A program made the position numbers and the translations under genes. Below, piece after piece: positions 20,788 through 33,892 of a DNA stretch of 33,892 bases (position 1 is its first letter; each line of letters opens with the position of its first letter). Below the pieces are notes generated by a model that saw only the letters and a list, made by a program, of their open reading frames with translations, searched no databases and was not told the origin of the DNA. This stretch comes from Desulfobacteraceae bacterium. GTDB taxonomy: Bacteria; Desulfobacterota; Desulfobacteria; Desulfobacterales; Desulfobacteraceae. The stretch is taken from contig JAIVHE010000298.1 of the NCBI GenBank assembly GCA_020201255.1, positions 1 through 33,892 of the forward strand, given 5' to 3'.

Positions 20788-22476
20788 ATGATCCAGCTGT
20801 TTATCGATATTCTGACAGAAGAATTCGGATTTCCCAAAAAGGAAACCGATAAAATTTTGGCATCCTATGAACAGGACAAAACCAGCCTGAAGGAAACCGT
20901 GCTTGCTGCCAAGATAATATCGGAACAGGATGTGCTCGAAATCCTGGGCAGAATGTACCACATGCCGGTATCGTCCATGCTGGAACCAGACCATGCAGAT
21001 GATACCTGGACAAGGAATATCTCCCGCAATTTTTTAAAAAAAGCCTGCATGGTTCCTCTCATCAAACAGACCGGCCGGCCCGTCATTGCAATCAATGACC
21101 CGTCAGACCTTGCCCCGGCCGATGATGTGGCGGCCCTGATCGGTCTCATAGACCATGACCTTGTCCTGGCCCGTAAAAACAGTATTTTATCGGCCATCAA
21201 TATTTTATATGACCGGTCAGGAGACAGTGCCCGGCAGCTGGCCCGGGAAATGGAAGGTAATGACCCCTTGATGGATGAGCTGGAGCAGACAGCCGACCTG
21301 CTGGATGATGTCAGTGATGCCCCGGTCATCCGCCTGGTAAACCGGATGATTTCCCAGGCGGTCAAAGCAGGTGCCAGTGATATTCACATCGAACCCTTTC
21401 AGCACAGCCTCAAGATCCGTTACCGCATCGACGGGATCCTGTATGAACGACTGACCCCACCCAAAAGAGTCCAGGCCTCTTTGATTTCCAGAATCAAAGT
21501 CATGGCCGGCATGAATATTGCTGAAAAACGCATTCCCCAGGACGGCCGTGCCCAGGTGCGCATCGGGGACCAGGAAATCGACATCCGTATTTCCACCGTC
21601 CCCACCAGCTATGGTGAACGCCTGGTAATGCGGCTGCTCAACAAATCCGGATATTTTCTCTCTTTGGACCAGTTCGGGCTTTCTGTAGATCATTTTGACC
21701 GGCTGAACCGTATCATCCGGCAGACCCACGGCATTGTCCTGGTCACCGGTCCCACCGGCAGCGGCAAAACCACTACCCTGTATGCCGGTCTGTCGGAAAT
21801 CAATTCCACGGACAAAAACATTATCACCATTGAAGATCCGGTGGAATACAACCTGACCGGTATCGGCCAGATCCAGGTGAACCCCAAAACCGGGGTCACC
21901 TTTGCCAAAGGATTGCGGGCCATTGTGCGCCAGGATCCGGATGTGGTGCTGGTGGGAGAAATCAGGGACGTTGAAACAGCGGGTATTGCCATCCAGTCGG
22001 CTCTCACCGGCCATCTGGTATTTTCCACCCTCCACACCAATGACGCGGCCGGGGCTGTCACCCGTTTAAAGGACCTGGGGGTGGAGCCTTATTTGATCTC
22101 CTCGTCGGTCAATGCCATCATTGCCCAGCGGCTGGTGCGTATCCTGTGCCCCCACTGCCGGCAGCAATATTTTCTGACACCAGCTGATGTGAAAAACCTC
22201 AACACCAACGGACAGGACCTGGCAGGCAAAAAGATTTACAAACCCCGGGGATGTTCCAAATGTTTTGAAACCGGGTATTTCGGACGTCAGGCCATTTTTG
22301 AAATTCTGGAACTGGATGATGAGATCAAGCACATGATCCTGAAAACCTCTGAAACCAACCGGATCAGGGAAGCAGCCGTGAAAAAAGGCATGGTCACCCT
22401 GCGCCGGGACGGCATGACCAAAGTGTTCCAGGGAATTACATCCATCAGAGAGGTGTTCCGTGTCACCCAGGAGTAA
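20788..22476 (+). CDS. gspE: Type II secretion ATPase GspE
   Basis: 562 residues, full length. The T2SSE_N domain (about 60-150) precedes the ATPase core: Walker A GPTGSGKTTTLYAG at about 321, Asp box TIEDPVEYNLTGIGQIQVN at about 346, Walker B DPDVVLVGEIRD at about 383, and His box ALTGHLVFSTLHTNDA at about 405. A four-cysteine zinc motif CPHC...CSKCFETGY (about 454-493) is present, as in GspE rather than most retraction ATPases. It powers pseudopilus assembly from the cytoplasm with GspL. gspF, which normally follows, is here inverted about 0.9 kb further on. Confidence 0.96.
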   Translation: MIQLFIDILTEEFGFPKKETDKILASYEQDKTSLKETVLAAKIISEQDVLEILGRMYHMPVSSMLEPDHADDTWTRNISRNFLKKACMVPLIKQTGRPVIAINDPSDLAPADDVAALIGLIDHDLVLARKNSILSAINILYDRSGDSARQLAREMEGNDPLMDELEQTADLLDDVSDAPVIRLVNRMISQAVKAGASDIHIEPFQHSLKIRYRIDGILYERLTPPKRVQASLISRIKVMAGMNIAEKRIPQDGRAQVRIGDQEIDIRISTVPTSYGERLVMRLLNKSGYFLSLDQFGLSVDHFDRLNRIIRQTHGIVLVTGPTGSGKTTTLYAGLSEINSTDKNIITIEDPVEYNLTGIGQIQVNPKTGVTFAKGLRAIVRQDPDVVLVGEIRDVETAGIAIQSALTGHLVFSTLHTNDAAGAVTRLKDLGVEPYLISSSVNAIIAQRLVRILCPHCRQQYFLTPADVKNLNTNGQDLAGKKIYKPRGCSKCFETGYFGRQAIFEILELDDEIKHMILKTSETNRIREAAVKKGMVTLRRDGMTKVFQGITSIREVFRVTQE

Positions 22477-22840
22477 AAGCAAAGCAATGGCCATCTGCAT
22501 GATCATGGTGCTGTGCTTGTCGGTACCCGGGGCCGCAGAAGAAAACCGCACCGGAAAAAAAAACCGAATCATCCGTTTTTATCAGGATCACATCTCAGGA
22601 GCTAACGGCAGCCGCTGCCCCATGTCTCCGTCTTGCTCTGAATACGCGGCACAGGCCCTGGAAAAACACGGCCCTGTCATGGGGTGGATCATGGTGTTCG
22701 ACCGGGTGATGCGATGCGGCAGAAGCGAAACCAGGCTGGCGCCGCAAAAACGGATCAACGGCGAACGTAAAAGCCATGACCCGGTCTCGGCCAATGATTT
22801 CTGGTGGTTCAAACCACCACCGGATAAGATGTTACAATGA
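22460..22840 (+). CDS. YidD-domain (membrane protein insertion efficiency factor-like) exported protein
   Basis: 126 residues from a GTG inside the gspE 3' end; an ATG at 22487 behind AGGAG is the alternative. An N-terminal signal peptide (MAICMIMVLCLSVPGAAEE) is followed by the YidD pattern IIRFYQDHISG...SRCPMSPSCSEYAAQALEKHG...RVMRCGR (PF01809), with its conserved cysteines. Classical YidD is a short, unsignalled protein beside rnpA-yidC, so an exported copy in a T2SS operon is a different use of the domain. It is coupled to the TPR gene by an ATGA overlap, suggesting a functional pair. No function should be assumed from the family name. Confidence 0.8.
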   Translation: MSPRSKSKAMAICMIMVLCLSVPGAAEENRTGKKNRIIRFYQDHISGANGSRCPMSPSCSEYAAQALEKHGPVMGWIMVFDRVMRCGRSETRLAPQKRINGERKSHDPVSANDFWWFKPPPDKMLQ

Positions 22841-24816
22841 TACAGATGCCGATACAATCCGAGGCATGGTCCGATGCATGGTCCGGTGCATGGTCCATGC
22901 GGCCCGGCGTGTCAATGCCTGCATCCCGGACCAGGGCATCCTTGTTCCCGGCCTTTCGGCACTGCCAGGTGCCATTTTACCCGCTGCTGTCCAAACGCAC
23001 GCTGATGCAATGGATATGGATACTGGCATGTCTGGTGTGGATGGGCATTGTCATGCCCGGAAGCGGTCCTGCCCCGGCAGATTCACGTGAACTTGTGATT
23101 TCAGCGGACAGGCAGTTTGCCTATGCAGATACCCTTTTCAATGACGAGGATTTTTCCACCGCAGAAGTTGAATTCAAGCGGTTTATCCATTTTTTCCCAG
23201 AGGATACCAGAATTTTGGAAGCGGCATACAAAACAGGAATGGCACTGTTTTTCCAGGAACGGTTCCATAATGCGGCCCGGCAATTCAATGACATCATCCG
23301 CGATGATCCGGATATATCAAACCCCTTCACCCAAGAGAGTTATTTTATGCAGAGCCGGGCTTTCATGCACCTGGAAAACATGGGGTATGCCCAGGTGGTA
23401 CTGCAAAATTTTGTAAAGCTCACTGATGATCCAGATACCCGGGACCGCATTTATCTGGATCTGGCAAAACTGCACATCCGGGCAAGCCTTCAGCCCGGCA
23501 CGGATGAACTGGACCAGGCCCTGGCATACCTGGAAAAAATTCCCCGGGGCAGTGCAAAGGATGCGGAAAAAAAACAACTGACAGCCCGCATTCAAAAAAC
23601 CCAATCCGTTCCTGAAAAAAGCCCGGTTTTGGCCGGTATTCTGGCCGCAATCCCCGGTAGCGGTTTTCTCTACACCGGCCGAGTCCATGATGCTGCGGCT
23701 GCGTTCCTTGTCAACACCGGGCTCGGGCTGGCAGCCTGGAAAGCCTTTGACCAGGACAATCCTGCCCTGGGAGGGGTAGTTGCCCTTGTGGGAGGCGGTT
23801 TTTACACCGGCAGGACAGACCGCCATAATGATCAACCCCACCACGACTCCCATGACCAGAATAATGACAGGCTCCACCAGGGCGGTAACAGCCGTCACTG
23901 CGGACTGGACATCTCTTTCATAGAGATCTGCGGTTTTGGTGAGCATTTTTTCCAGTTCCCCGCTTTTTTCCCCCACCTGGATCATCCGGGAAGCCAGCCC
24001 GGGAAAATAGGGACTTGTGGAAAGCGCCACCCCGAGCTCTCCGCCCTGCTCCACCCGGTCGGCCGCCGCCTGGATCACATCCGATATCACCCGGTTGCCG
24101 GCAATCTTTCTGGCAATTGTCAATGCCGTCATCAACGGCACCCCGTTTTCCAGCAAAGACCCCAGGGTCCTGGAAAACCGGGCCGTGATCAATTTTCGGA
24201 TCAAAGAACCGGCAAGGGGAAGGCGGAGAATGAACAGGTCGGTATACAAAACCCCTGTGTCGGTTTTCCGGATCAGATAAAGCCCCAGGCCCGCCATGAC
24301 CGGCAGCAGAACCAAGGCCCACCAGAAACCGGTAAAAAAGTCACTGATCCGGATCAAAATCAAGGTGGGCAATGGAAGGGTCTGGTTCATATCAGAAAAA
24401 ATCTGGATGATACCGGGTACGATATAGGTGAGAAGAATCACCAGCACAAGGAAACCGATGACAGACATGATCATGGGATAGGCCAATGCGGCCTGGATCT
24501 TTTTTTTGGTCTCTTCCCTGCGCTCGGCAAAATCCGCCAGCCGCTCCAGCACGACCTCAAGGGTGCCGGAAGACTCTCCTGCCGCCACCATATTGACATA
24601 CACCCCGGAAAACACGTGGGGATAGAGTGTGAGAGAATCGGCAAAACTGCTGCCCTCTTCAATGGCATCCTTGATCCGGGACAAAACCTTTTGAAACGCC
24701 CTGGAACGTGTCTGGCCAGCCACCGTAGCCACGGCATTTGCCAGTGGAAACCCGGCGGACAACAAGGTGGCAATGAGCCGGGTAACCATGGTGATTTCAG
24801 AAGAATTGATTTTTGA
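22837..24816 (+). CDS. TPR-type exported protein, 3' truncated and running into antisense gspF
   Basis: The frame encodes 659 residues, but only the first about 325 (to 23811) look genuine. These hold an odd N-terminal extension with three AWS repeats, a signal-like helix (MQWIWILACLVWMGIVM, from Met57), tetratricopeptide-like helices (ADTLFNDEDFSTAEVEFKRFI; TGMALFFQERFHNAARQF) and a membrane segment beginning LAAIPGSGFLYTGR. Related proteins continue after the last GFYTG with a helix of the NIY-A type. Here the frame switches into the reverse complement of gspF, giving a His/Gln/Gly-rich nonsense tail. It overlaps the YidD gene by ATGA. The real protein has lost its C-terminus; an ATG at 23005 is an alternative start. 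Confidence 0.6.
   Translation: MIQMPIQSEAWSDAWSGAWSMRPGVSMPASRTRASLFPAFRHCQVPFYPLLSKRTLMQWIWILACLVWMGIVMPGSGPAPADSRELVISADRQFAYADTLFNDEDFSTAEVEFKRFIHFFPEDTRILEAAYKTGMALFFQERFHNAARQFNDIIRDDPDISNPFTQESYFMQSRAFMHLENMGYAQVVLQNFVKLTDDPDTRDRIYLDLAKLHIRASLQPGTDELDQALAYLEKIPRGSAKDAEKKQLTARIQKTQSVPEKSPVLAGILAAIPGSGFLYTGRVHDAAAAFLVNTGLGLAAWKAFDQDNPALGGVVALVGGGFYTGRTDRHNDQPHHDSHDQNNDRLHQGGNSRHCGLDISFIEICGFGEHFFQFPAFFPHLDHPGSQPGKIGTCGKRHPELSALLHPVGRRLDHIRYHPVAGNLSGNCQCRHQRHPVFQQRPQGPGKPGRDQFSDQRTGKGKAENEQVGIQNPCVGFPDQIKPQARHDRQQNQGPPETGKKVTDPDQNQGGQWKGLVHIRKNLDDTGYDIGEKNHQHKETDDRHDHGIGQCGLDLFFGLFPALGKIRQPLQHDLKGAGRLSCRHHIDIHPGKHVGIECERIGKTAALFNGILDPGQNLLKRPGTCLASHRSHGICQWKPGGQQGGNEPGNHGDFRRIDF
22864..22899 (+). 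repeat. Three 12-bp tandem repeats in the TPR gene
   Basis: Units GCATGGTCCGAT, GCATGGTCCGGT and GCATGGTCCATG lie head to tail at 22864-22875, 22876-22887 and 22888-22899. They are in frame and encode AWSD-AWSG-AWSM in the N-terminal extension of the TPR protein, before its signal-like helix. Confidence 0.7.
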
Positions 24817-25014
24817 AAAAAAGCCGAATACCGACAGATCTATTTTTTTTTGGGGGCCTTTTTCATCAGCCGTTGACCTGACCTGGGCCAGGAACACCGG
24901 ATACAACTGCTGTTCCCGGAGCCTGGACTGGGCCCCGGGCAGGCTGTCCGCATCCACCATGCCGGTGACATTTTTACCCTTTGTATTGAGTGCCTTGTAT
25001 TCAAATACCGCCAA
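23317..25014 (-). CDS. gspF: Type II secretion platform protein GspF, inverted, last residues replaced
   Basis: The frame runs 565 residues, but GspF homology covers only about residues 1-400 (25014-23815). The start is TTG at 25014 with MAVFEYKALNTKGKNVTG, the standard GspF N-terminus. Two T2SSF domains follow (RLIATLLSAGFPLANAV...; RFSRTLGSLLENGVPLMTALTIA), each with membrane helices and the QVGEKSGELEKML signature. The last helix reads EPVIILVMGVVVGLIIMAVC and then breaks: the usual short final stretch (L-P-I-F-x-x-N type) is missing, and about 165 residues of TPR-gene antisense follow. GspF is the polytopic centre of the inner-membrane platform. Orientation opposite to the rest of the operon is abnormal. 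Confidence 0.88.
   Translation of the reverse strand: MAVFEYKALNTKGKNVTGMVDADSLPGAQSRLREQQLYPVFLAQVRSTADEKGPQKKIDLSVFGFFSKINSSEITMVTRLIATLLSAGFPLANAVATVAGQTRSRAFQKVLSRIKDAIEEGSSFADSLTLYPHVFSGVYVNMVAAGESSGTLEVVLERLADFAERREETKKKIQAALAYPMIMSVIGFLVLVILLTYIVPGIIQIFSDMNQTLPLPTLILIRISDFFTGFWWALVLLPVMAGLGLYLIRKTDTGVLYTDLFILRLPLAGSLIRKLITARFSRTLGSLLENGVPLMTALTIARKIAGNRVISDVIQAAADRVEQGGELGVALSTSPYFPGLASRMIQVGEKSGELEKMLTKTADLYERDVQSAVTAVTALVEPVIILVMGVVVGLIIMAVCPAGVKTASHKGNYPSQGRIVLVKGFPGCQPEPGVDKERSRSIMDSAGVEKTATGDCGQNTGQNRAFFRNGLGFLNAGCQLFFFRILCTAPGNFFQVCQGLVQFIRAGLKACPDVQFCQIQINAVPGIWIISELYKILQYHLGIPHVFQVHESPALHKITLLGEGV
23809..23817. other. Rearrangement junction between TPR gene and inverted gspF
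   Basis: Left of this point the plus strand encodes the TPR protein up to GFYTG; right of it the minus strand encodes GspF up to MAVC. Neither gene has a stop codon near the joint, and each frame continues far into the antisense strand of the other. The missing 3' ends of both genes were not found elsewhere in the window. Confidence 0.75.
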
Positions 25015-25114: not shown

Positions 25115-26101
25115 TTAATTTCTGTCCGTTTTCGGATGTCGCATCACATCAACTCTTTTCAGATTGGGGTCGATTTTCACAACGGCTATGTTTTCACCAG
25201 AACTCCGAAAATCTCCAATAGAGCCAAGCTGATATACGTTTATGGTGTCAAACAGGGTGTATTCCCGCCACTGGTGCTGGTGACCGGAAAATATGGCAAG
25301 GATTTTGTCTTTGTGGACGGCTGCGATCTCATAAAACCGGTCATTTTTATCAATGGACATGTCACTGAAAAATATGGACTGCAAAGTAAGTGAATCAGGG
25401 GTATCCATATCTTTTGCCGGCGGATGATGACAAAAAAGAATGGCGGGTTCAGGCCGGTTCAGAAGGGATTCCAGCCAGTCCATCTGCTCTGGATCAAAAG
25501 ATCCCTGGCATAAGGTTTCCGACCTGAAGCCCAGGCAGATAGTGAAAAGCGAATCCCCACGGTTGCTGTTTAAAAATATCATCTGAATCCCTTTATGAAT
25601 GAAGGAATAATACGGATCAATGTTCAGAACCTTTTTCCATACCGCCTCCACACTTTCCGGATTCAGGGTGGGAACATGATCCAGGGTGGTTAGATCAAAA
25701 CCCACATAGTAATCATGGTTGCCCAGGGCTATATGATATGGGAGAATCAGATGGTCAAATAAACGCTTGAACACTTCAGGGGGCGTATCACCTCTGCCTT
25801 GGTAATCATATGGATTTTCACTGAACAGGCATCCCACAAGATCCCCTGTTACCGCGACAAAGTCCGCATGTGCGTAATTTTCATTCATCAGGTCAACGGC
25901 AAGCATCAGGTTCGCCAGATTTCTCTGATTATTGAAAAATATGTCATCAGGATTCCCCGGCACACGTAGATGGATATCGGAAACAACAACAATTTCAAAT
26001 GGTTTGGTTTTTTCGGAAATATTCGTATCTGTCCAGCAGCCGCTGACAGTAACAGACAAAAAAACCATCAGGCAGATGTTTTTTTTTATGGTTGTTTTCA
26101 A
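25115..26101 (-). CDS. Calcineurin-like metallophosphoesterase lipoprotein
   Basis: I choose the TTG at 26101 (GGGGA upstream) because it gives a classic lipoprotein leader, MKTTIKKNICLMVFLSVTVSG|C, with lipid Cys22; earlier in-frame starts (up to 26230) put the leader mid-protein. The metallophosphoesterase motifs (PF00149) are in order: VSDIHLR (D42, H44), AVTGDLVG, LGNHDYY, LFCHHPP and FSGHQHQW. It should hydrolyse a phosphoester at a two-metal site on the periplasmic side; the substrate is unknown. It is transcribed toward gspF's 5' end (the two genes are in tandem on the minus strand, 100 bases apart) and shares no obvious function with T2SS. Confidence 0.82.
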   Translation of the reverse strand: MKTTIKKNICLMVFLSVTVSGCWTDTNISEKTKPFEIVVVSDIHLRVPGNPDDIFFNNQRNLANLMLAVDLMNENYAHADFVAVTGDLVGCLFSENPYDYQGRGDTPPEVFKRLFDHLILPYHIALGNHDYYVGFDLTTLDHVPTLNPESVEAVWKKVLNIDPYYSFIHKGIQMIFLNSNRGDSLFTICLGFRSETLCQGSFDPEQMDWLESLLNRPEPAILFCHHPPAKDMDTPDSLTLQSIFFSDMSIDKNDRFYEIAAVHKDKILAIFSGHQHQWREYTLFDTINVYQLGSIGDFRSSGENIAVVKIDPNLKRVDVMRHPKTDRN

Positions 26102-26437
26102 CAAGTTATCCCCGTGATATATTCGGTGATTGTCGGCCTTGGATATTTCCATAAGAGATGACACACTCATTTTGATAATATTTTTATACGCAACAGCCAA
26201 CAGCAGACTTAATTGCAAACCTGTCTGCATTCTTTCACATATTTAATTTTTTCAAAACGCAGACAAATTATCATGACAGTCCCATAAAAACAAGCAAATA
26301 AAAACGGCCTGAAGATCTGCAAAAAGGCTTCTCTCTTGATTTTTTTTCGGAGTATGATTGATATTCACATCAAGCCCCTTGATTTAATATCGTCCTTGTG
26401 TAAAAGTTCTTCGATACCGACATATTTGGAGCATCTG
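26102..26437. promoter_or_regulatory. Divergent intergenic region with a candidate sigma70 promoter
   Basis: About 336 AT-rich bases between the phosphoesterase and the plus-strand exported protein. TTGATT (26336-26341) and TGATAT (26359-26364) are 17 bases apart and could drive the plus-strand gene, with a leader of about 68 bases. The match to consensus is moderate. I see no other structure apart from longer upstream starts possible for either gene. Confidence 0.3.
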
Positions 26438-28183
26438 ATGATAAAAAAAATTGTTCTTGCTGTTATGTTGATTCTTGCTTTCAGTCCACCAAGCTTTTCA
26501 GAAACCCGCAATGTTTCGTTACTTGCCGAAAACATAAGAGAACACCTGCCGGATAATGCACAATCCTTGTATGACCGGAACACCTTGTATTTTACTGTCG
26601 GCCACTATCTGGCAAAACATCTTACCGCTGCAACATCAACCACCCGGGCACACCACCTGTTTGACCTGTACGCAAAACTGGTTGCAGAGATGCGGGCCCA
26701 CAGGGGTATTTTGCCTTTGAGTGCGGTATATTACGGTATGTTTGAATATATGGTTATACAAGATTTTTTGACCAGATCCGGTGTACAGCGTATCCATCAT
26801 ACGCCTGTTTCGGACCGGGCATACACAGGGATTGAAATATACCGGGGATTTGAGGAGTTTTATGCAGAAAAATTACGGTATGAATCCTTTTTATCACTGT
26901 ATGCCGCCACCCATTCCGATAGCTTTGTCTATGGGGGGTTGATCACAAAATATGTCGCTGTCTTTAACGGGTTGATGTTGAACCTGCATGCTACCATGTT
27001 AACCTGGGCAGGATTACTGGATGACGTCCTTTATGTAAAAACCAATGCTCCGGAATATTTTCCTTCCGACAGGATTACCATAACACTGACCGCAGACCAA
27101 ATGGACAATTTCACAATTGACGCCATCGCCATTACTGACGGGCAGAGGCAACAGGCACAGTTCAACAATTTTACTTATGGCGGCACGCATATATCCTTAG
27201 ATACGGTAGTACCGCAGTTTTCTGAATACAAAATCTTTGCAGTCCTTCCGGTTCCAGCAGGTGCGAATACGCTTTTTGATGAAGCACAGGTTAATATTGA
27301 CATCAAAAACCCTTTTCTCATTACCCCGGACCAGATACAATTTTCACCTTATCTGCTGGATGTATATGAAAATCACACCCTGAAAGGCACAAAACTGCTG
27401 CACCCCCTTGACTTCATATTCACGGGTGGATTTCCGGATGATCCGTCAACCGAAGAAAACGAAGCAGAGATAAATCTGGCAATACCAGGGGATTTCACCC
27501 ACCTGATCATGTATCTGGGAAGACTGGCGGACGGCACACCTGTGGGTGCGGAAATGACAACATCAATGGAAGAAAAACATTTTTCCATCAGATTGATCAA
27601 ACTGCTGGAAAAGGTGGATGACCCTTTTGACTCCAGCAGCCATGACTTGCCCCTGGTAACGGTAAACACAAAAAAATATAAACATGTAAACGCCCGGCGC
27701 CTGAACAGCGATGATCTGAACACGCTGTTTTATCACAGCCATGACATATACCAACGGGTGATCACAGATATCTACGATTCACTGGATTATCAATACCAAT
27801 TTTACTGGTCTGGAAACCTGGATGACAAAAACATTTATCTCATTGATGACGGACTTGCAGGCGGTGCAGCGTGCACTGATTATTGGCTGGCACTTTTTGA
27901 AGAGATCGCCGGTATATGCATAAAAGAGGCCCGAATGGACCGGACCGGCTTCATAGAGTACTATACCAGCGACCCTGTGGGCACAACCGTAAAAATTCCT
28001 GGATTGTTAAACCCGTTTCCCTTTGAGGTTTATGTGGCAAGCCTTCTCAATTCTTTTGGGTTTGCCGTCATAGATCCGGAACCTCACATCTTCTCTTGTG
28101 ACAATTCCACAGAAACAGGAATTGCCATACCGGATAAACTTTTTGGTTCAGCAGATCTGGTGGACATCAGATTTATCCATTAA
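26438..28183 (+). CDS. Exported protein of unknown function (581 aa)
   Basis: From the ATG at 26438 (GGAG upstream) there is a clear signal peptide, MIKKIVLAVMLILAFSPPSFS|ETR. I do not recognise the family. The N-terminal third is helical (ENIREHLPDNAQSLYDRNTLYF; HHLFDLYAKLVAEMRAH). The middle (about 215-300) looks beta-rich and Ig-like (DRITITLTADQMDNFTIDAIAI; EYKIFAVLPVPAGANTLF). The C-terminal part is acidic with several aromatic residues and ends at VDIRFIH. No lipobox, no C-terminal anchor and no catalytic motif were seen. Codon use resembles the neighbours. It is likely periplasmic or secreted; with a T2SS nearby, secretion is possible but unproven. Confidence 0.75.
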   Translation: MIKKIVLAVMLILAFSPPSFSETRNVSLLAENIREHLPDNAQSLYDRNTLYFTVGHYLAKHLTAATSTTRAHHLFDLYAKLVAEMRAHRGILPLSAVYYGMFEYMVIQDFLTRSGVQRIHHTPVSDRAYTGIEIYRGFEEFYAEKLRYESFLSLYAATHSDSFVYGGLITKYVAVFNGLMLNLHATMLTWAGLLDDVLYVKTNAPEYFPSDRITITLTADQMDNFTIDAIAITDGQRQQAQFNNFTYGGTHISLDTVVPQFSEYKIFAVLPVPAGANTLFDEAQVNIDIKNPFLITPDQIQFSPYLLDVYENHTLKGTKLLHPLDFIFTGGFPDDPSTEENEAEINLAIPGDFTHLIMYLGRLADGTPVGAEMTTSMEEKHFSIRLIKLLEKVDDPFDSSSHDLPLVTVNTKKYKHVNARRLNSDDLNTLFYHSHDIYQRVITDIYDSLDYQYQFYWSGNLDDKNIYLIDDGLAGGAACTDYWLALFEEIAGICIKEARMDRTGFIEYYTSDPVGTTVKIPGLLNPFPFEVYVASLLNSFGFAVIDPEPHIFSCDNSTETGIAIPDKLFGSADLVDIRFIH

Positions 28184-28396
28184 CAGAAAATTGCCGCTGG
28201 TTTTCTGGCATCCACCATTACTTTTTTGTCTGTTACAGGTAAAAGCAGTCCTGTTTTGGTACCTGAAATATGAACCTCACGCAAAAAAAACCTTTCAAGA
28301 ATAAGCTTTTTCCGTTTATAGGCATTATCGGCCCGAATCTTTTTTTTGCATACATCACAACCCCATTAGTTCCGGGGCAATTTTACTGCTGCCGTG

Positions 28397-28549
28397 CTAT
28401 TGCAACTTACCCTTGTTCTGCTCAGCCTGTTCCTTTATCTGGGTTTCGAGCTGTTTCAGGCCGTTGGCCAGTCCATTGACAAAATTGTTGGCCTGGCTCA
28501 CCGGGATGATCAATGTTCCGACGTCCACAGTTGCATTGTCCGCAGGCAT
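28397..28549 (-). CDS. Short coding-like minus-strand frame (50 aa), probably a 5'-truncated gene tail
   Basis: From an ATG at 28549 the frame reads MPADNATVDVGTLIIPVSQA, continues NNFVNGLANGLKQLE, and ends in a charged helix EQAEQNKGKLQ before TAG. Third positions are GC-rich, as in nearby genes, and the tail looks like a real helical protein end. The opposite-strand translation here (MFCSACSFIW...) does not. No ribosome-binding site precedes the ATG, and the upstream DNA is the sense strand of the BACON-like gene, so the original 5' end is probably missing. I do not recognise the family. A chance open frame remains possible. Confidence 0.35.
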   Translation of the reverse strand: MPADNATVDVGTLIIPVSQANNFVNGLANGLKQLETQIKEQAEQNKGKLQ

Positions 28550-30479
28550 ACTGACTGTTCTGCTGTTGACCGGCTGGCTGACTGCATCGGCATCGGCATT
28601 TACCGCTGGTGAACTGAAGGTATCACCCGAGGCGATCGAGATCGGTACGGTCAGACTTCTTCCCGGGACCGCATCCGGATCTTTCTCCTTCAGTATCGCT
28701 GTTGTGGGCGGCCCTGTTCCCGATGCTCCTGTGCAAGCAGAAGAAGAAGAAGCAGAAAGTGCAGAGGAAACCGCCTCCTTTTTTGCGGCAACCGATGCAC
28801 CATGGATAACCCTTTCGTCAGCAGAAGGAGAAGCACCCGGTTCCATCACGGCAGAGGTTACCGTTTCTGAAGGCATGGGAGAAGGCAGATGGGACGGCAA
28901 CATCACCATCATGTCCGGTCTGGACCCTGATACTGATCCTGTTTCAATACCGGTTTCCCTGACAGTGGTACGCAGTATTGGTGATCAGTTAACGGTTTCA
29001 CCAACCAGTCTGAATCTGGTTGTCACGGAAAAAAATGCAGGACAACAGACCTTTCCCGTTGATATTATCAATGCCGACCCGGACAAATCCGCGTATGACT
29101 GGAGCGCCCAGACAGATGCCGCATGGTTGACCCTGTCCAGATATTCCGGTACAGGTAATGACACCATTTCCCTGACAGCAAATCCACAGCTTTTGTCCAT
29201 GAATGAAGATTTTGACGGGGATGGTATGCTGGACGGCGCAACCGGTACCGTAATCTTCAGATCCAACTTGAATTCAGAACAAAATGCAGATCCGGTGGTC
29301 TTGACGGTTCAGCTCAGAACCGCCCGGTCAACCGATCTGTCCGTGCATCCGGGACAGCTGTTCTGGAGTATTGAAAAAGATGCGGCTTCCGGTGAAATTT
29401 CCTTTGATCCACAGATTCTTCAGGTTTTTTCAGGACCGGCCGGGTGGACAGCATCCACTGATGTCAACTTTCTTTCCATCGACAACGGTGCCGGCCAGGT
29501 CAGCGCAGACCCGTATGGTCAACTGTCGGTTTCCCCGGTTTCCGGTCTTGTCAGGGCAATGGAGTATGGGAATCACACAGGCACCATAACGATATCCGAT
29601 CGATACAGCCAGTTTTTTCGCAATATACCGGTAACCATCAATATCAGGCGCCCGGGTGAACCAGTTTCCTTGCCTGTTCCGGCACCGGAAATGTATCAGA
29701 TCTCCCCCTACTACAGCATGATTGAAACCGCCGCAGCCAGTCAACTGCACCTGCAACTGCCCGTACCTGACAGCCTGGTGTACCACCCTACACCGATGAT
29801 GTGCCAGGATGCCGGCGGACAATGGCTTGACCCGGACAATGTACCCGGAAATCTCAATGAATACTGCAGCCTGAACCAGTATGTATATGTGCTGATGGAA
29901 TTCCCCCAGATGGCGCCTGGCCTGGTGTACGCCTGGGACAAATTCGGACAATTCTTTCTTGCCTATAACAACGGCATAAAAACCAGCGGAGCAGATGCCC
30001 ATACCTATGCGGACGGTCCTGTGCCGTTCATTCCGTTCGGTCCGGTCCAGCTGCTGGAATACCATGGCTCCATGGTGATCAGCACCCGGGTCGGCGCAGA
30101 CCTGAACACAGCCGTTGAAACCCAGCGCATCCAGATCAACCTCAGAACCCTGGAAGGCACATGGAACGTAACCGAATCCTATAATGGAATGCTGTACAGT
30201 TACGGCAATGCCAATCTGCTGAATTTGAATCGAAAACCGGCAGAACCCGGATATTACACCGGCACATGGGGCACCACCCCGGTTACAGTGGTACCCGGGG
30301 ACGGGATTACATATCTGCATCAGCTGTCCTTCATGCAATACGGCATTACCTTCACCTATGAGATACAAACCCTTTCCGCCGGTCAAATGTCGGGAAGATG
30401 GCGGTTCACATGGCCTGGCGGCGCAGGCAACTGGGAAACATTTCAGGCCGGCCGCCAATTGCAGCTTCCATCATGGTAG
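28506..30479 (+). CDS. Exported multi-domain protein with BACON-like repeats
   Basis: 657 residues from the ATG at 28506; the start is uncertain because this ATG lies inside the minus-strand coding-like frame, and the n-region (MINVPTSTVALSAG) lacks the usual positive charge. The hydrophobic core ILTVLLLTGWLTASASA|FTAG is a clear signal sequence. Three beta-sandwich modules follow, beginning LKVSPEAIEIG, LTVSPTSLNLVV and LSVHPGQLFWSI, each with a W-(I/L)-T-L or similar and a G-x-I-x-I strand, resembling BACON (PF13004). A Glu-rich linker sits in the first. The C-terminal about 250 residues form another domain (YYTGTWGTTPVTV) that I do not recognise. Likely a cell-surface or secreted protein. 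Confidence 0.7.
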   Translation: MINVPTSTVALSAGILTVLLLTGWLTASASAFTAGELKVSPEAIEIGTVRLLPGTASGSFSFSIAVVGGPVPDAPVQAEEEEAESAEETASFFAATDAPWITLSSAEGEAPGSITAEVTVSEGMGEGRWDGNITIMSGLDPDTDPVSIPVSLTVVRSIGDQLTVSPTSLNLVVTEKNAGQQTFPVDIINADPDKSAYDWSAQTDAAWLTLSRYSGTGNDTISLTANPQLLSMNEDFDGDGMLDGATGTVIFRSNLNSEQNADPVVLTVQLRTARSTDLSVHPGQLFWSIEKDAASGEISFDPQILQVFSGPAGWTASTDVNFLSIDNGAGQVSADPYGQLSVSPVSGLVRAMEYGNHTGTITISDRYSQFFRNIPVTINIRRPGEPVSLPVPAPEMYQISPYYSMIETAAASQLHLQLPVPDSLVYHPTPMMCQDAGGQWLDPDNVPGNLNEYCSLNQYVYVLMEFPQMAPGLVYAWDKFGQFFLAYNNGIKTSGADAHTYADGPVPFIPFGPVQLLEYHGSMVISTRVGADLNTAVETQRIQINLRTLEGTWNVTESYNGMLYSYGNANLLNLNRKPAEPGYYTGTWGTTPVTVVPGDGITYLHQLSFMQYGITFTYEIQTLSAGQMSGRWRFTWPGGAGNWETFQAGRQLQLPSW

Positions 30480-30525
30480 GCGTTGTGAATAAGGAAACAA
30501 ATTTTTATCCTCTGAGGAGATAACA

Positions 30526-31779
30526 ATGAAAACAATACAGGTGGTTATCACAACAATTCTGGCGGCTTTTCTTTTCACCGCCTGCGGAACTGCGACTGTT
30601 GACTCCATTCATCCGGTGGTTCGTACGGCCAATCTGGGAAACGAAAAAACCATTGTCATCCTTCCCTTTGCCGATTACACGCCGGCAGACTCTCCTGTGG
30701 GATACTGGCGCCGGAACATGCTGATAATGGAAGCGCTGCAGGATGAGATCCTGCGTTTCGGATATGCCCCTGCCGTCAGCGAAGATGTCATTTCTTATCT
30801 TTCCCAAAAAAAGATTATCAACCAGAATACGGTGCCCGAGCTGTCAAGTGCCAATACCGTACTGCAGGCGGAACTGGCCAAGGACTGGTCCGATATCATG
30901 AAAAGTGAAATTGCCAAAGTCCTGCATGCAAATCTGCAAAAACAAAATCTGGAGACATCTCATGATCCCGATGCCCAGTATAAATCCATCGCCCTGGACC
31001 ACAACGCCATTCAGGAAATCGGCATGGCATTCAATGCCGACTATGTAGTCAGAGGCCGTATAATAGTGTTCAAAAACGGCAGAGAAGACAGTTTCAACCC
31101 ATTACAAACCGGTGTACTTCCTTTTTTCTTCAATACCGGATCACGAGCGCTGTTCGGCATTGCGGAATCGGAAAACTATGAAATGATTGATAAAATGGCC
31201 ATCGGCGGTATATTGGGCGCTGCTGTTTCCATGAATGACTGGCCCGTGGACAGTGACACGACAACTTCTCTGGGAGGCGGGCATCCGCGCTTTGGCGGCG
31301 GCTTGATCACAGAAACATCCTATTCAGACTGGAATACAGCGATATGGGGTGTTGCAGGCGCCGGTCTGGCCCACCTTGCCCACAAAGGCGGGCGCGTTGA
31401 CAATGCCGTTGTCCAGCTAAGAATGATCGTGCAAAACACCAGAAACGGTGAAATCGTATGGACAAATCGGGCAGAAGTGAAAACAATGACCCAGAGTGCC
31501 TTCAACAAAAAAGATGGTGACGTCCTTATGGCCCGGGCCATTCAGCAGGTTTGTGAACGACTTTTTGACAATTTTGTTGCCTCCGATGCTGACAGGCGGG
31601 TTGTCCGCATGTATGATGACGGTACTTTCTATGTCACCCCAGCGGGGGGTCTTAAAGCCCACAGCAATCCCCTTGATCCCATACATATTGAATCCCCGGC
31701 CGCTGTTTCGAAAGACCGAAAGACCTTCAAACCGCTATCGGAAACCCGTGACCCGGTCAAAACGGCTGTCGAACGCTGA
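30526..31779 (+). CDS. Outer-membrane lipoprotein, CsgG/GNA1162-like
   Basis: 417 residues behind a strong ribosome-binding site (GAGGAGATAAC). The leader MKTIQVVITTILAAFLFTA|C has a lipobox with Cys20. KTIVILPFADYTPAD and the later FNADYVVRGRIIVF and LRMIVQNTRNGEIVW are the strands of the CsgG/GNA1162 type of lipoprotein fold, where a nucleotide-binding-like alpha/beta domain faces the periplasm. Members act in curli export or have unknown envelope roles; no csg partners are here. A Gly-rich stretch (about 245-290) may be an insert. It starts 46 bases after the BACON-like gene and is probably cotranscribed with it. The fold assignment is tentative. Confidence 0.65.
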   Translation: MKTIQVVITTILAAFLFTACGTATVDSIHPVVRTANLGNEKTIVILPFADYTPADSPVGYWRRNMLIMEALQDEILRFGYAPAVSEDVISYLSQKKIINQNTVPELSSANTVLQAELAKDWSDIMKSEIAKVLHANLQKQNLETSHDPDAQYKSIALDHNAIQEIGMAFNADYVVRGRIIVFKNGREDSFNPLQTGVLPFFFNTGSRALFGIAESENYEMIDKMAIGGILGAAVSMNDWPVDSDTTTSLGGGHPRFGGGLITETSYSDWNTAIWGVAGAGLAHLAHKGGRVDNAVVQLRMIVQNTRNGEIVWTNRAEVKTMTQSAFNKKDGDVLMARAIQQVCERLFDNFVASDADRRVVRMYDDGTFYVTPAGGLKAHSNPLDPIHIESPAAVSKDRKTFKPLSETRDPVKTAVER

Positions 31780-31805
31780 TGCCATTTGATTTCATGGATT
31801 TCCTG

Positions 31806-31949
31806 CAAAGGAGAAGGTTTTTGTCCCGCGACAGGAACAAAACACAGGCGAAAATTGTAAAAAGTATAGTTTCCATAATGCGGGAGACTGTAATAAAGGA
31901 TTGAATATTTGTCTATGATTTCAGGCAGGACGAATAAATACGAGGGACA
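31806..31949 (-). mobile_element. IS remnant A (5' end of a transposase gene plus left terminus)
   Basis: This stretch aligns without gaps to 33714-33857 (constant offset 1908), with about 80 percent identity by eye. On the minus strand it holds the terminus TGTCCCTCGTATTTATTCG, a leader, and the ATG at 31876 of a transposase frame beginning METILFTIFACVLFLSRDKN. Similarity stops at about 31806, 24 codons in, close to the stop of the lipoprotein gene. It is a 5'-end remnant only. Confidence 0.7.
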
Positions 31950-31970
31950 CCCCAATTATTCAATTATTCA

Positions 31971-32741
31971 CTATTGAAATGAAATCACATCATCATCTCC
32001 CAGAAAAGAGACGACATCCCGGTTTTTTACAGCAGCTTGTTCCTGCACTTTTGACATTTTTTCAAAAATTTGTATGTTGCCCATGGACAGCATCTGAGCG
32101 TAAGCAATTGGCAGGCTGCCTGCTTTGCGGAGTTTCAGAAACCAGTCATCATCCAGGCTGTTCAGCTTTGCCTCGTCTATTCGGTACAGCCCGGTAACGG
32201 GTTCTTCCCGATCTCCCAGTTTGATTTTCAACGACCATTCTGTCAGAAGGTCCGCATCTGCCAGAGATGCCACAGCCGCATCAGTTGCGGTCTTGTTCTG
32301 TTCCACCTGAGATAAAAATTGCAGTATGTCCTTCACGGGTTTGGATAATTCTTTGTTGTCATCAAAAAACGGTTCCCCTGCATTTTTATCTTCATTGACC
32401 AGCCCGGAATCTTCATCAACACACAGCAGCATTTCATTCTTCGGCCCTCCCCTTGCCAGGCGGAACGGATACCCCCTGAAAGCGGAAGGGATATATTTTC
32501 CCAGCCATTGCCCGCTGGGAGCCACAAACAGGTTGGTACCGGGGGTGAGAGACAGCACCGCAACCAGCATAAAATGGTCTTTCTGTTTTACAAAAGCAAG
32601 GGGCATGCTTAGGGATGCATTGGGTATTTCTGCGCTCACCAGAGGGGCGATGCACTCTTTGCCGGCAAAGTTATAGGAAGTAAATCTTGTCCAGGATTTA
32701 TCGGCGTGGTTGTTTTTGGTGATGGCGGATAGATGTGTCAT
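31971..32741 (-). CDS. SapC family protein
   Basis: 256 residues matching the SapC family (PF07277): VSAEIPNASLSMPLAFVK, MLVAVLSLTPGTNLFVAPSGQWLGKYIPSAFRGYPFRLA, LLCVDEDSGLV, GEPFFDDNKELSKPVKDILQFL, and YRIDEAKLNSLDDDWFLKLRKAGSLPIAYAQMLSMGNIQ. Length is usual. The family was named from surface-array work in Campylobacter, but its biochemical role is unclear; no signal peptide or membrane helix is visible, so it is likely cytoplasmic. No S-layer or other sap gene is nearby. It stands alone between two IS remnants, and its ATG has only a weak, distant AAGGA, which suggests acquired or displaced DNA. Confidence 0.85.
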   Translation of the reverse strand: MTHLSAITKNNHADKSWTRFTSYNFAGKECIAPLVSAEIPNASLSMPLAFVKQKDHFMLVAVLSLTPGTNLFVAPSGQWLGKYIPSAFRGYPFRLARGGPKNEMLLCVDEDSGLVNEDKNAGEPFFDDNKELSKPVKDILQFLSQVEQNKTATDAAVASLADADLLTEWSLKIKLGDREEPVTGLYRIDEAKLNSLDDDWFLKLRKAGSLPIAYAQMLSMGNIQIFEKMSKVQEQAAVKNRDVVSFLGDDDVISFQ

Positions 32742-32859
32742 AGGGTATTTGGGTCCTTGCGGATATCTGGATTAACAAAATTTGCATGGCAATAATGGTG
32801 TAAAAGCTACTGCCGTGCAGTATGCTCACAAAATCATGGTTTGTACAGTCACTGAAATC

Positions 32860-32920
32860 ATAGTAAATGAAGAAAAAATTGTCAATGATTTCAGGTAAGA
32901 CGGAATGAATACGAGGGACA
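32860..32920. mobile_element. IS remnant B (left terminus only)
   Basis: GTCAATGATTTCAGGTAAGA and the terminal ACGAGGGACA (32881-32920) match the outer 39 bases of copy C (33819-33857) with one extra base. Similarity fades leftward before the transposase ATG. It has the same orientation as copies A and C. The stop of the DUF2442 remnant lies two bases beyond the terminus. Confidence 0.6.
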
Positions 32921-32921
32921 G

Positions 32922-33108
32922 CTATATGATGGCCAAAGATCTATCATACAAAGTTTCAGGTGCAATATCGATATTCCCTGGCCATACAACTGTTCCATGC
33001 TCAACTCGTGCAGCCATAAAAATAGAACCTTTCAGCCGATAAAATGGTCGTTTGTCAATGATAGAAGTCATATCAAACAAACGCTTTTCACCATTTTCAT
33101 CCTTATTG
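32922..33108 (-). pseudogene. DUF2442 remnant lacking its N-terminus
   Basis: On the minus strand the frame reads NKDENGEKRLFDMTSIIDK, then FYRLKG and VVWPGNIDIAPETLYDRS before TAG, the conserved core of DUF2442 (PF10387). There is no start codon in frame before the core: a TAA lies just upstream, and the first about 15 residues of the usual domain are absent. A nearby ATG in another frame (MKMVKSV, resembling a DUF2442 start) stops after ten codons, suggesting an internal deletion or frameshift. The DUF4160 stop is about 10 bases upstream. DUF2442 proteins often pair with DUF4160, so this was probably the second gene of that module. Confidence 0.65.
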
Positions 33109-33111
33109 TTT

Positions 33112-33381
33112 TTATCTTAATGGTTCGATACGGAAAGGTTCCTCACCTGCGATTGCAAGCTCCCAATTAGCAAGTAGTTCATCTTTGTAGAGATCTACCC
33201 ACACCTGTAGCATTTTCAATTGTTTAGGTGGGATACTACCAGCAAGAACGGCTCCATCGTCAATCGAAACTGAAGCTTTCATACCCTGATAACGCGCATC
33301 AATATGAGGTAAATGATGACGTTCATTCTCCTCAAAAAAAATAGATACTATAATCCCGTAAAACATGCAGATTGTTGGCAT
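33112..33381 (-). CDS. DUF4160 domain protein
   Basis: 89 residues from the ATG at 33381, which has a perfect AGGAGG five bases upstream; a TTG at 33399 is in frame but lies before that site. The sequence MPTICMFYGIIVSIFFEENERHHLPHID...YQGMKASVSIDDG, then LAGSIPPKQLKMLQVWVDLYKDELLANWELA, is the full DUF4160 (PF13711) pattern. The family is small and of unknown function, usually next to DUF2442 and often in mobile, toxin-antitoxin-like settings. A good promoter lies 44 bases upstream. The downstream partner is broken, so only half of the pair remains intact. Confidence 0.88.
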   Translation of the reverse strand: MPTICMFYGIIVSIFFEENERHHLPHIDARYQGMKASVSIDDGAVLAGSIPPKQLKMLQVWVDLYKDELLANWELAIAGEEPFRIEPLR

Positions 33382-33424
33382 GAAACCTCCTGAAAGCAAT
33401 TGATTCTTAATGAAATCATACTAA

Positions 33425-33453
33425 AGAATACGAGAGATAGTGAGTATTGTCAA
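33425..33453 (-). promoter_or_regulatory. Sigma70-type promoter of the DUF4160 gene
   Basis: On the minus strand a perfect -35 TTGACA (33453-33448) and a -10 TATTCT (33430-33425) are separated by exactly 17 bases. Transcription would start near 33418, leaving a leader of about 37 bases before the AGGAGG and ATG of the DUF4160 gene. Confidence 0.65.
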
Positions 33454-33511
33454 GCAGACTGCGGAAAACCCAGCGAATAACCTTGGTCCGAAAAAGTATA
33501 GGTGAGAAATG

Positions 33512-33784
33512 TTACTCTGACCCCGCTTCCCTATCCAATGATACGGCTTTCATCCGTGAACAGGTCCTGGAGATCGGAACAACAATGAGAACACCTTTCC
33601 AGTCTTTCCAAAACCTGGATAAAAACACCCAGAAAATCCGGTCCCTGATTCTAATCTTCGTCCGTTTGTTCTTCTGTTTCATAATTGCAAGCTGCTGACG
33701 CAAGGCAAGGTTCTCAAGGTGAAGATTTCTATCCCGTGACAGCAACAAAATACAGACCAGCATTGTAAAAATCATCGTTTCCAT
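33512..33784 (-). pseudogene. Truncated integrase-core transposase gene (IS remnant C)
   Basis: From the ATG at 33784 the frame reads METMIFTMLVCILLLSRDRN, then ENLALRQQLAIMKQKNK and IRDRIFWVFLSRFWKDWKG, the N-terminal helix-turn-helix region of DDE integrase-type transposases (IS3/IS481-like group). Homology ends at about residue 69 (33578). The last about 22 residues (PISRTCSRMKAVS...) come from unrelated sequence, and the whole catalytic DDE domain is missing. It cannot be active. The open frame also extends upstream to 33889, but that part is the IS leader and terminus. Confidence 0.75.
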
Positions 33785-33857
33785 AATGCGGACGACTATA
33801 ATGGAGGGTTGAAGATTTGTCAATGATTTCAGGTAGGACGAATAAATACGAGGGACA
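33578..33857 (-). mobile_element. IS remnant C (longest of three)
   Basis: This copy spans the terminus TGTCCCTCGTATTTATTCG (ending at 33857), the leader and 69 codons of transposase. Copies A and B match its outer 144 and about 40 bases. All three point the same way and end at the same terminus, so that sequence is likely the IS left end. No opposite end was found. Confidence 0.7.
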
Positions 33858-33892
33858 ACATACCAAAAGAATAAATGAAAAATCTCCATAAA

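Follow-up and report, generated by a model that had tools for sequence, protein, structure and literature searches.

Do a TPR-protein gene and gspF form a tail-to-tail fusion in this Desulfobacteraceae bacterium, and does such a fusion call for an inversion within its T2SS gene cluster? The window, that is, the whole stretch of 33,892 nucleotides analysed here, corresponds to contig C337 of G000, a draft genome of 3.38 Mb (602 contigs, 77% complete) that is most likely a metagenome bin and belongs to the genus whose publicly available members bear the name Desulfotignum. Two long open frames overlap in it on opposite strands, one of 659 aa on the plus strand (22837-24816) and one of 565 aa on the minus strand (23317-25014). 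Homology of the plus-strand frame to the TPR protein ends at GFYTG (23811), and the T2SSF/GspF homology of the minus-strand frame ends at MAVC (23815-23817). Both frames are unbroken up to a join at 23813/23814 and, past the ends of homology, each one reads its neighbour in antisense until the next stop. The first-pass annotation of this DNA had described two overlapping frames that are protein-like at first and antisense thereafter. This pattern is present, with the switch located at 23813/23814.

The genuine parts of both genes are readily recognized (Table 1). Residues 1-400 of the minus-strand frame contain the two T2SSF domains (PF00482) that characterize GspF, a protein of about 400 aa, and are 90% identical to the GspF of Desulfotignum sp. 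S09.Bin188, a sister genome (G005) with about 91% DNA identity. The orthologue in G005 passes the TIGR02120 GspF model (426.3 bits, cut-off 424). The TPR protein was matched in 33 of the 39 genomes searched, and its gene probably starts at 23005 rather than at 22837.

Table 1. Features around the TPR-gspF join, in window coordinates.
Feature	Coordinates	Strand	Remarks
gspE (T2SS ATPase)	20788..22476	+	Intact; PF00437, 483.8 bits; 93% aa identity to G005
yidD-like gene	22460..22840	+	PF01809, 60.1 bits
TPR-protein gene, genuine part	23005..23813	+	TPR_14/TPR_6; lacks the last 46 codons
Junction	23813..23814		Blunt; 268 bp of G005 sequence absent
gspF, genuine part (400 residues)	23814..25014	-	PF00482, 219 bits, two domains
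Spurious 3' tail of the TPR frame	23814..24816	+	gspF antisense
Spurious 3' tail of the gspF frame	23317..23813	-	TPR antisense

Gene order in relatives was determined by searching related loci with the proteins of the window (tblastn). The order gspE-yidD-TPR with a convergent gspF was found in at least 13 genomes (G005, G008, G022, G030, G021, G029, G034, G035, G015, G048, L085, L087 and L097), one of which, Desulfospira joergensenii DSM 10085 (G021), is an isolate; in L097, no yidD was detected by tblastn. T2SS gene content, order, and orientation in D. joergensenii DSM 10085 and Desulfotignum sp. S09.Bin188 match those of the window. Hence, although no T2SS gene other than gspF lies on the minus strand, as the first-pass annotation stated, the description of gspF as lying on the wrong strand does not hold, because this is the usual layout in Desulfobacteraceae relatives. 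Within the family, the convergent position of gspF in the T2SS cluster is conserved and nothing unusual. A minority of genomes depart from this layout: in G003 the order is codirectional (gspE-gspF-yidD-TPR), in G002 gspE and gspF are directly convergent without yidD or TPR between them, and the layouts of G017 and G020 also vary. The position of gspF thus varies within the genus (L065, 6302-8879; L072, 755-3704), and gspF is convergent after the TPR gene in most other family members.

The window differs from the convergent cluster of its relatives in the sequence between the two genes. In the relatives' loci inspected, the TPR gene and gspF have separate stops and conserved C-termini, GspF usually ending in LPI-(F/V)-E-(I/M)-NQL.. 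and the TPR protein carrying a conserved IYGS(I/V)xxAHKxN.. tail after GFYxG. Equivalent positions of TPR and GspF lie 178-271 bp apart in the convergent relatives and 3 bp apart in the window, which lacks 268 bp there. Likewise, the GspF C-terminal end (approximately LPI-x-E-x-NQL, followed by a stop), carried by nearly every one of the 23 relatives compared, is absent from the window. By comparison with relatives, both genes have therefore lost their usual C-termini, in agreement with the earlier claim.

Alignment of the window with G005 is colinear through both genes (90.6% over 12.6 kb) and reveals a single blunt loss of 268 bp in the window, at 23813/23814. Judged from G005, the lost segment takes in the 3' end of the TPR gene (46 codons), the spacer, and the final 11 codons of gspF (LPIVEINQLIM in G005), and we attribute the missing C-terminal end of GspF to this loss. 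The remaining indels within the T2SS genes are of 3 or 9 bp, and the TPR N-terminal region also differs in length. At the join, the left flank ends in ..GGCAG and the right flank begins with GACAGACC.., no base of the lost segment being shared in register. A microhomology deletion at GGCAG was rejected, because the shared GGCAG is one base out of register and the join is consequently blunt. No N is present at 23813/23814, the missing 268 bp were not found elsewhere in the draft genome, and the junction had no plasmid match.

Similar losses recur across the draft genome. We compared about 441 kb of it with 1.1 Mb of G005, of which about 179 kb aligned (an approximate figure, as it is a sum of matches). 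We counted 41 length differences of 40 bp or longer, and in 32 of them the draft was the shorter sequence. At near-blunt junctions, defined as those with at most 12 bases remaining between the flanks, 22 losses were found in the draft vs. 2 in G005 (binomial p ~4e-5). Losses in the draft appear to occur about once per 5-6 kb of aligned sequence and to involve stretches of roughly 50-400 bp. Fifteen lie wholly within one G005 gene (gene calls in G005 being simple longest open frames), and 11 of these 15 shift the frame. Thus, like losses number 32 in about 179 kb of the assembly, and essential genes are among those affected.

Three of the broken genes are lysS (lysine--tRNA ligase; net loss of 166 bp, without Ns), bamA (net loss of 149 bp, without Ns) and dnaG (DNA primase; net loss of 127 bp, with an N at its join), all of them frame-shifted; rsmE, a pilQ-like secretin gene and a BCCT-like transporter gene are also broken. 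NCBIfam matches of the G005 copies confirmed the identities of lysS, BamA, dnaG, and RsmE, and the secretin and the transporter were named from sequence only. In the draft, lysS and bamA are each found as two fragments around the join, lacking query residues 158-211 and 398-442, respectively, and no second intact copy of either gene was found in this genome. At another join, 20 Ns replace 290 bp. Frame-shifted lysS, bamA, and dnaG are not tolerable in a free-living cell, and for this reason we regard their breaks as assembly errors. Base composition was rejected as the cause of the dropped segments, since their GC content equals that of the flanks (0.488 vs. 0.485). One locus, L159 (contig C541 of the draft), bears the broken lysS and bamA and has also lost the whole of lpxB, which in G005 is present between the neighbouring genes; the boundaries of this loss lie a few bases at most from those of the gene. 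Some of the larger losses, such as that of lpxB, may be genuine differences in gene content. The conclusion of an artefact is independent of them, as lysS, bamA, and dnaG suffice.

The first-pass annotation held that the arrangement needs an inversion, its breakpoint lying at about 23811-23815. Such an inversion, whether natural or derived from an amplification chimera, would have put gspF on the minus strand. This proposal fits the strand of gspF, opposite to that of the other T2SS genes, and the variable orientation of gspF in the family, where a few relatives such as G003 are codirectional. However, the closest relatives share the order and orientation of the window with both gene ends intact, and the alignment with G005 runs colinearly with only a gap between the two genes. 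Moreover, a reversed orientation on one side of the join was not found against close relatives (G005, G008, G021, G022 and others). Because a convergent gspF is the normal state in relatives, no inversion is needed; at least 13 genomes have this arrangement already, and a loss of about 268 bp in direct orientation suffices. The comparison of gene order in relatives, which had been suggested as a check, yields the same convergent order with intact, separate stops and argues against the inversion, which the colinear alignment with G005 already refutes.

A recent, real deletion of 268 bp in the strain would also remove both 3' ends, and its products would be a GspF whose 165 C-terminal residues are foreign and a TPR protein extended by an antisense tail. 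The lack of Ns at the join, the integrity of both frames up to it, and the clean state of the rest of the T2SS cluster relative to G005 are consistent with such an event. Nevertheless, similar blunt losses are found in lysS, bamA, and dnaG, the assembly makes such joins about once per 5-6 kb of aligned sequence, and the breakpoint has no in-register microhomology. These data make a real deletion improbable. If it had occurred, the T2SS would probably be impaired. That a genuine 268-bp deletion arose in this Desulfotignum relative and that its T2SS still uses a GspF whose long C-terminal tail derives from antisense sequence is more improbable still.

Altogether, the TPR-gspF fusion is very probably a local assembly error in the draft genome rather than a biological fusion. 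In the organism, the TPR gene, following gspE-yidD, and gspF would be convergent, with their own stops and, like those of close relatives, a short spacer in between. The assembly would have lost about 268 bp spanning both 3' ends and joined the flanks bluntly, after which each frame would run on through its neighbour in antisense up to the next stop. We read this join as one more of the recurrent errors of the draft, as it has the same form as the others (blunt, a few hundred bases, in direct orientation), and a collapsed scaffold gap or a wrong local join may underlie it. The many similar losses in conserved or essential genes of the draft lend support to the assembly chimera that the first-pass annotation had named as its fallback. 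Local assembly errors in MAGs result in incomplete protein-coding genes, and IDBA-UD assemblies are suspected in particular (Chen et al., 2020; PMC7111523). The draft resembles the cases of that report in its putatively unsupported joins or gaps, its incomplete or incorrect genes, the large number of errors per genome, and the presence of Ns at some joins. The view that the fusion is not real biology is thus strongly favoured, and fusions, truncations, and long antisense tails in this genome should not be taken as biology. Caution with its gene structures is warranted because the draft appears to lose stretches of about 50-400 bp every 5-6 kb or so.

The long chimeric tails of the window exist because the antisense frames are already open in the intact G005 genes, over 345 codons in gspF and 170 codons in the TPR gene. 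Antisense open runs of 282-412 codons are found in other genes of the window, and open tails of such length are unremarkable. The TPR-gspF spacer of G005 (L063, 1791-1840) contains three imperfect tandem units of 16-18 bp, CCAAGTGAGACTGCG-like. A dispersed spacer repeat was rejected as the cause of the broken assembly, as the AAGTGAGACTGCG motif, with one occurrence in G005 and none in the other 14 genomes searched, is a local tandem repeat only. To the right of gspF, from the metallophosphoesterase gene onwards (25115-33892), no sequence of G005 corresponds closely to the window. Relative to G005, the window has about 170 extra in-frame bases, with CATGGTCC repeats, between yidD and the TPR gene (22848-23064). 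The aligned part of the TPR gene lies 243 bp from yidD in the window, compared with 75-186 bp in 12 related loci.
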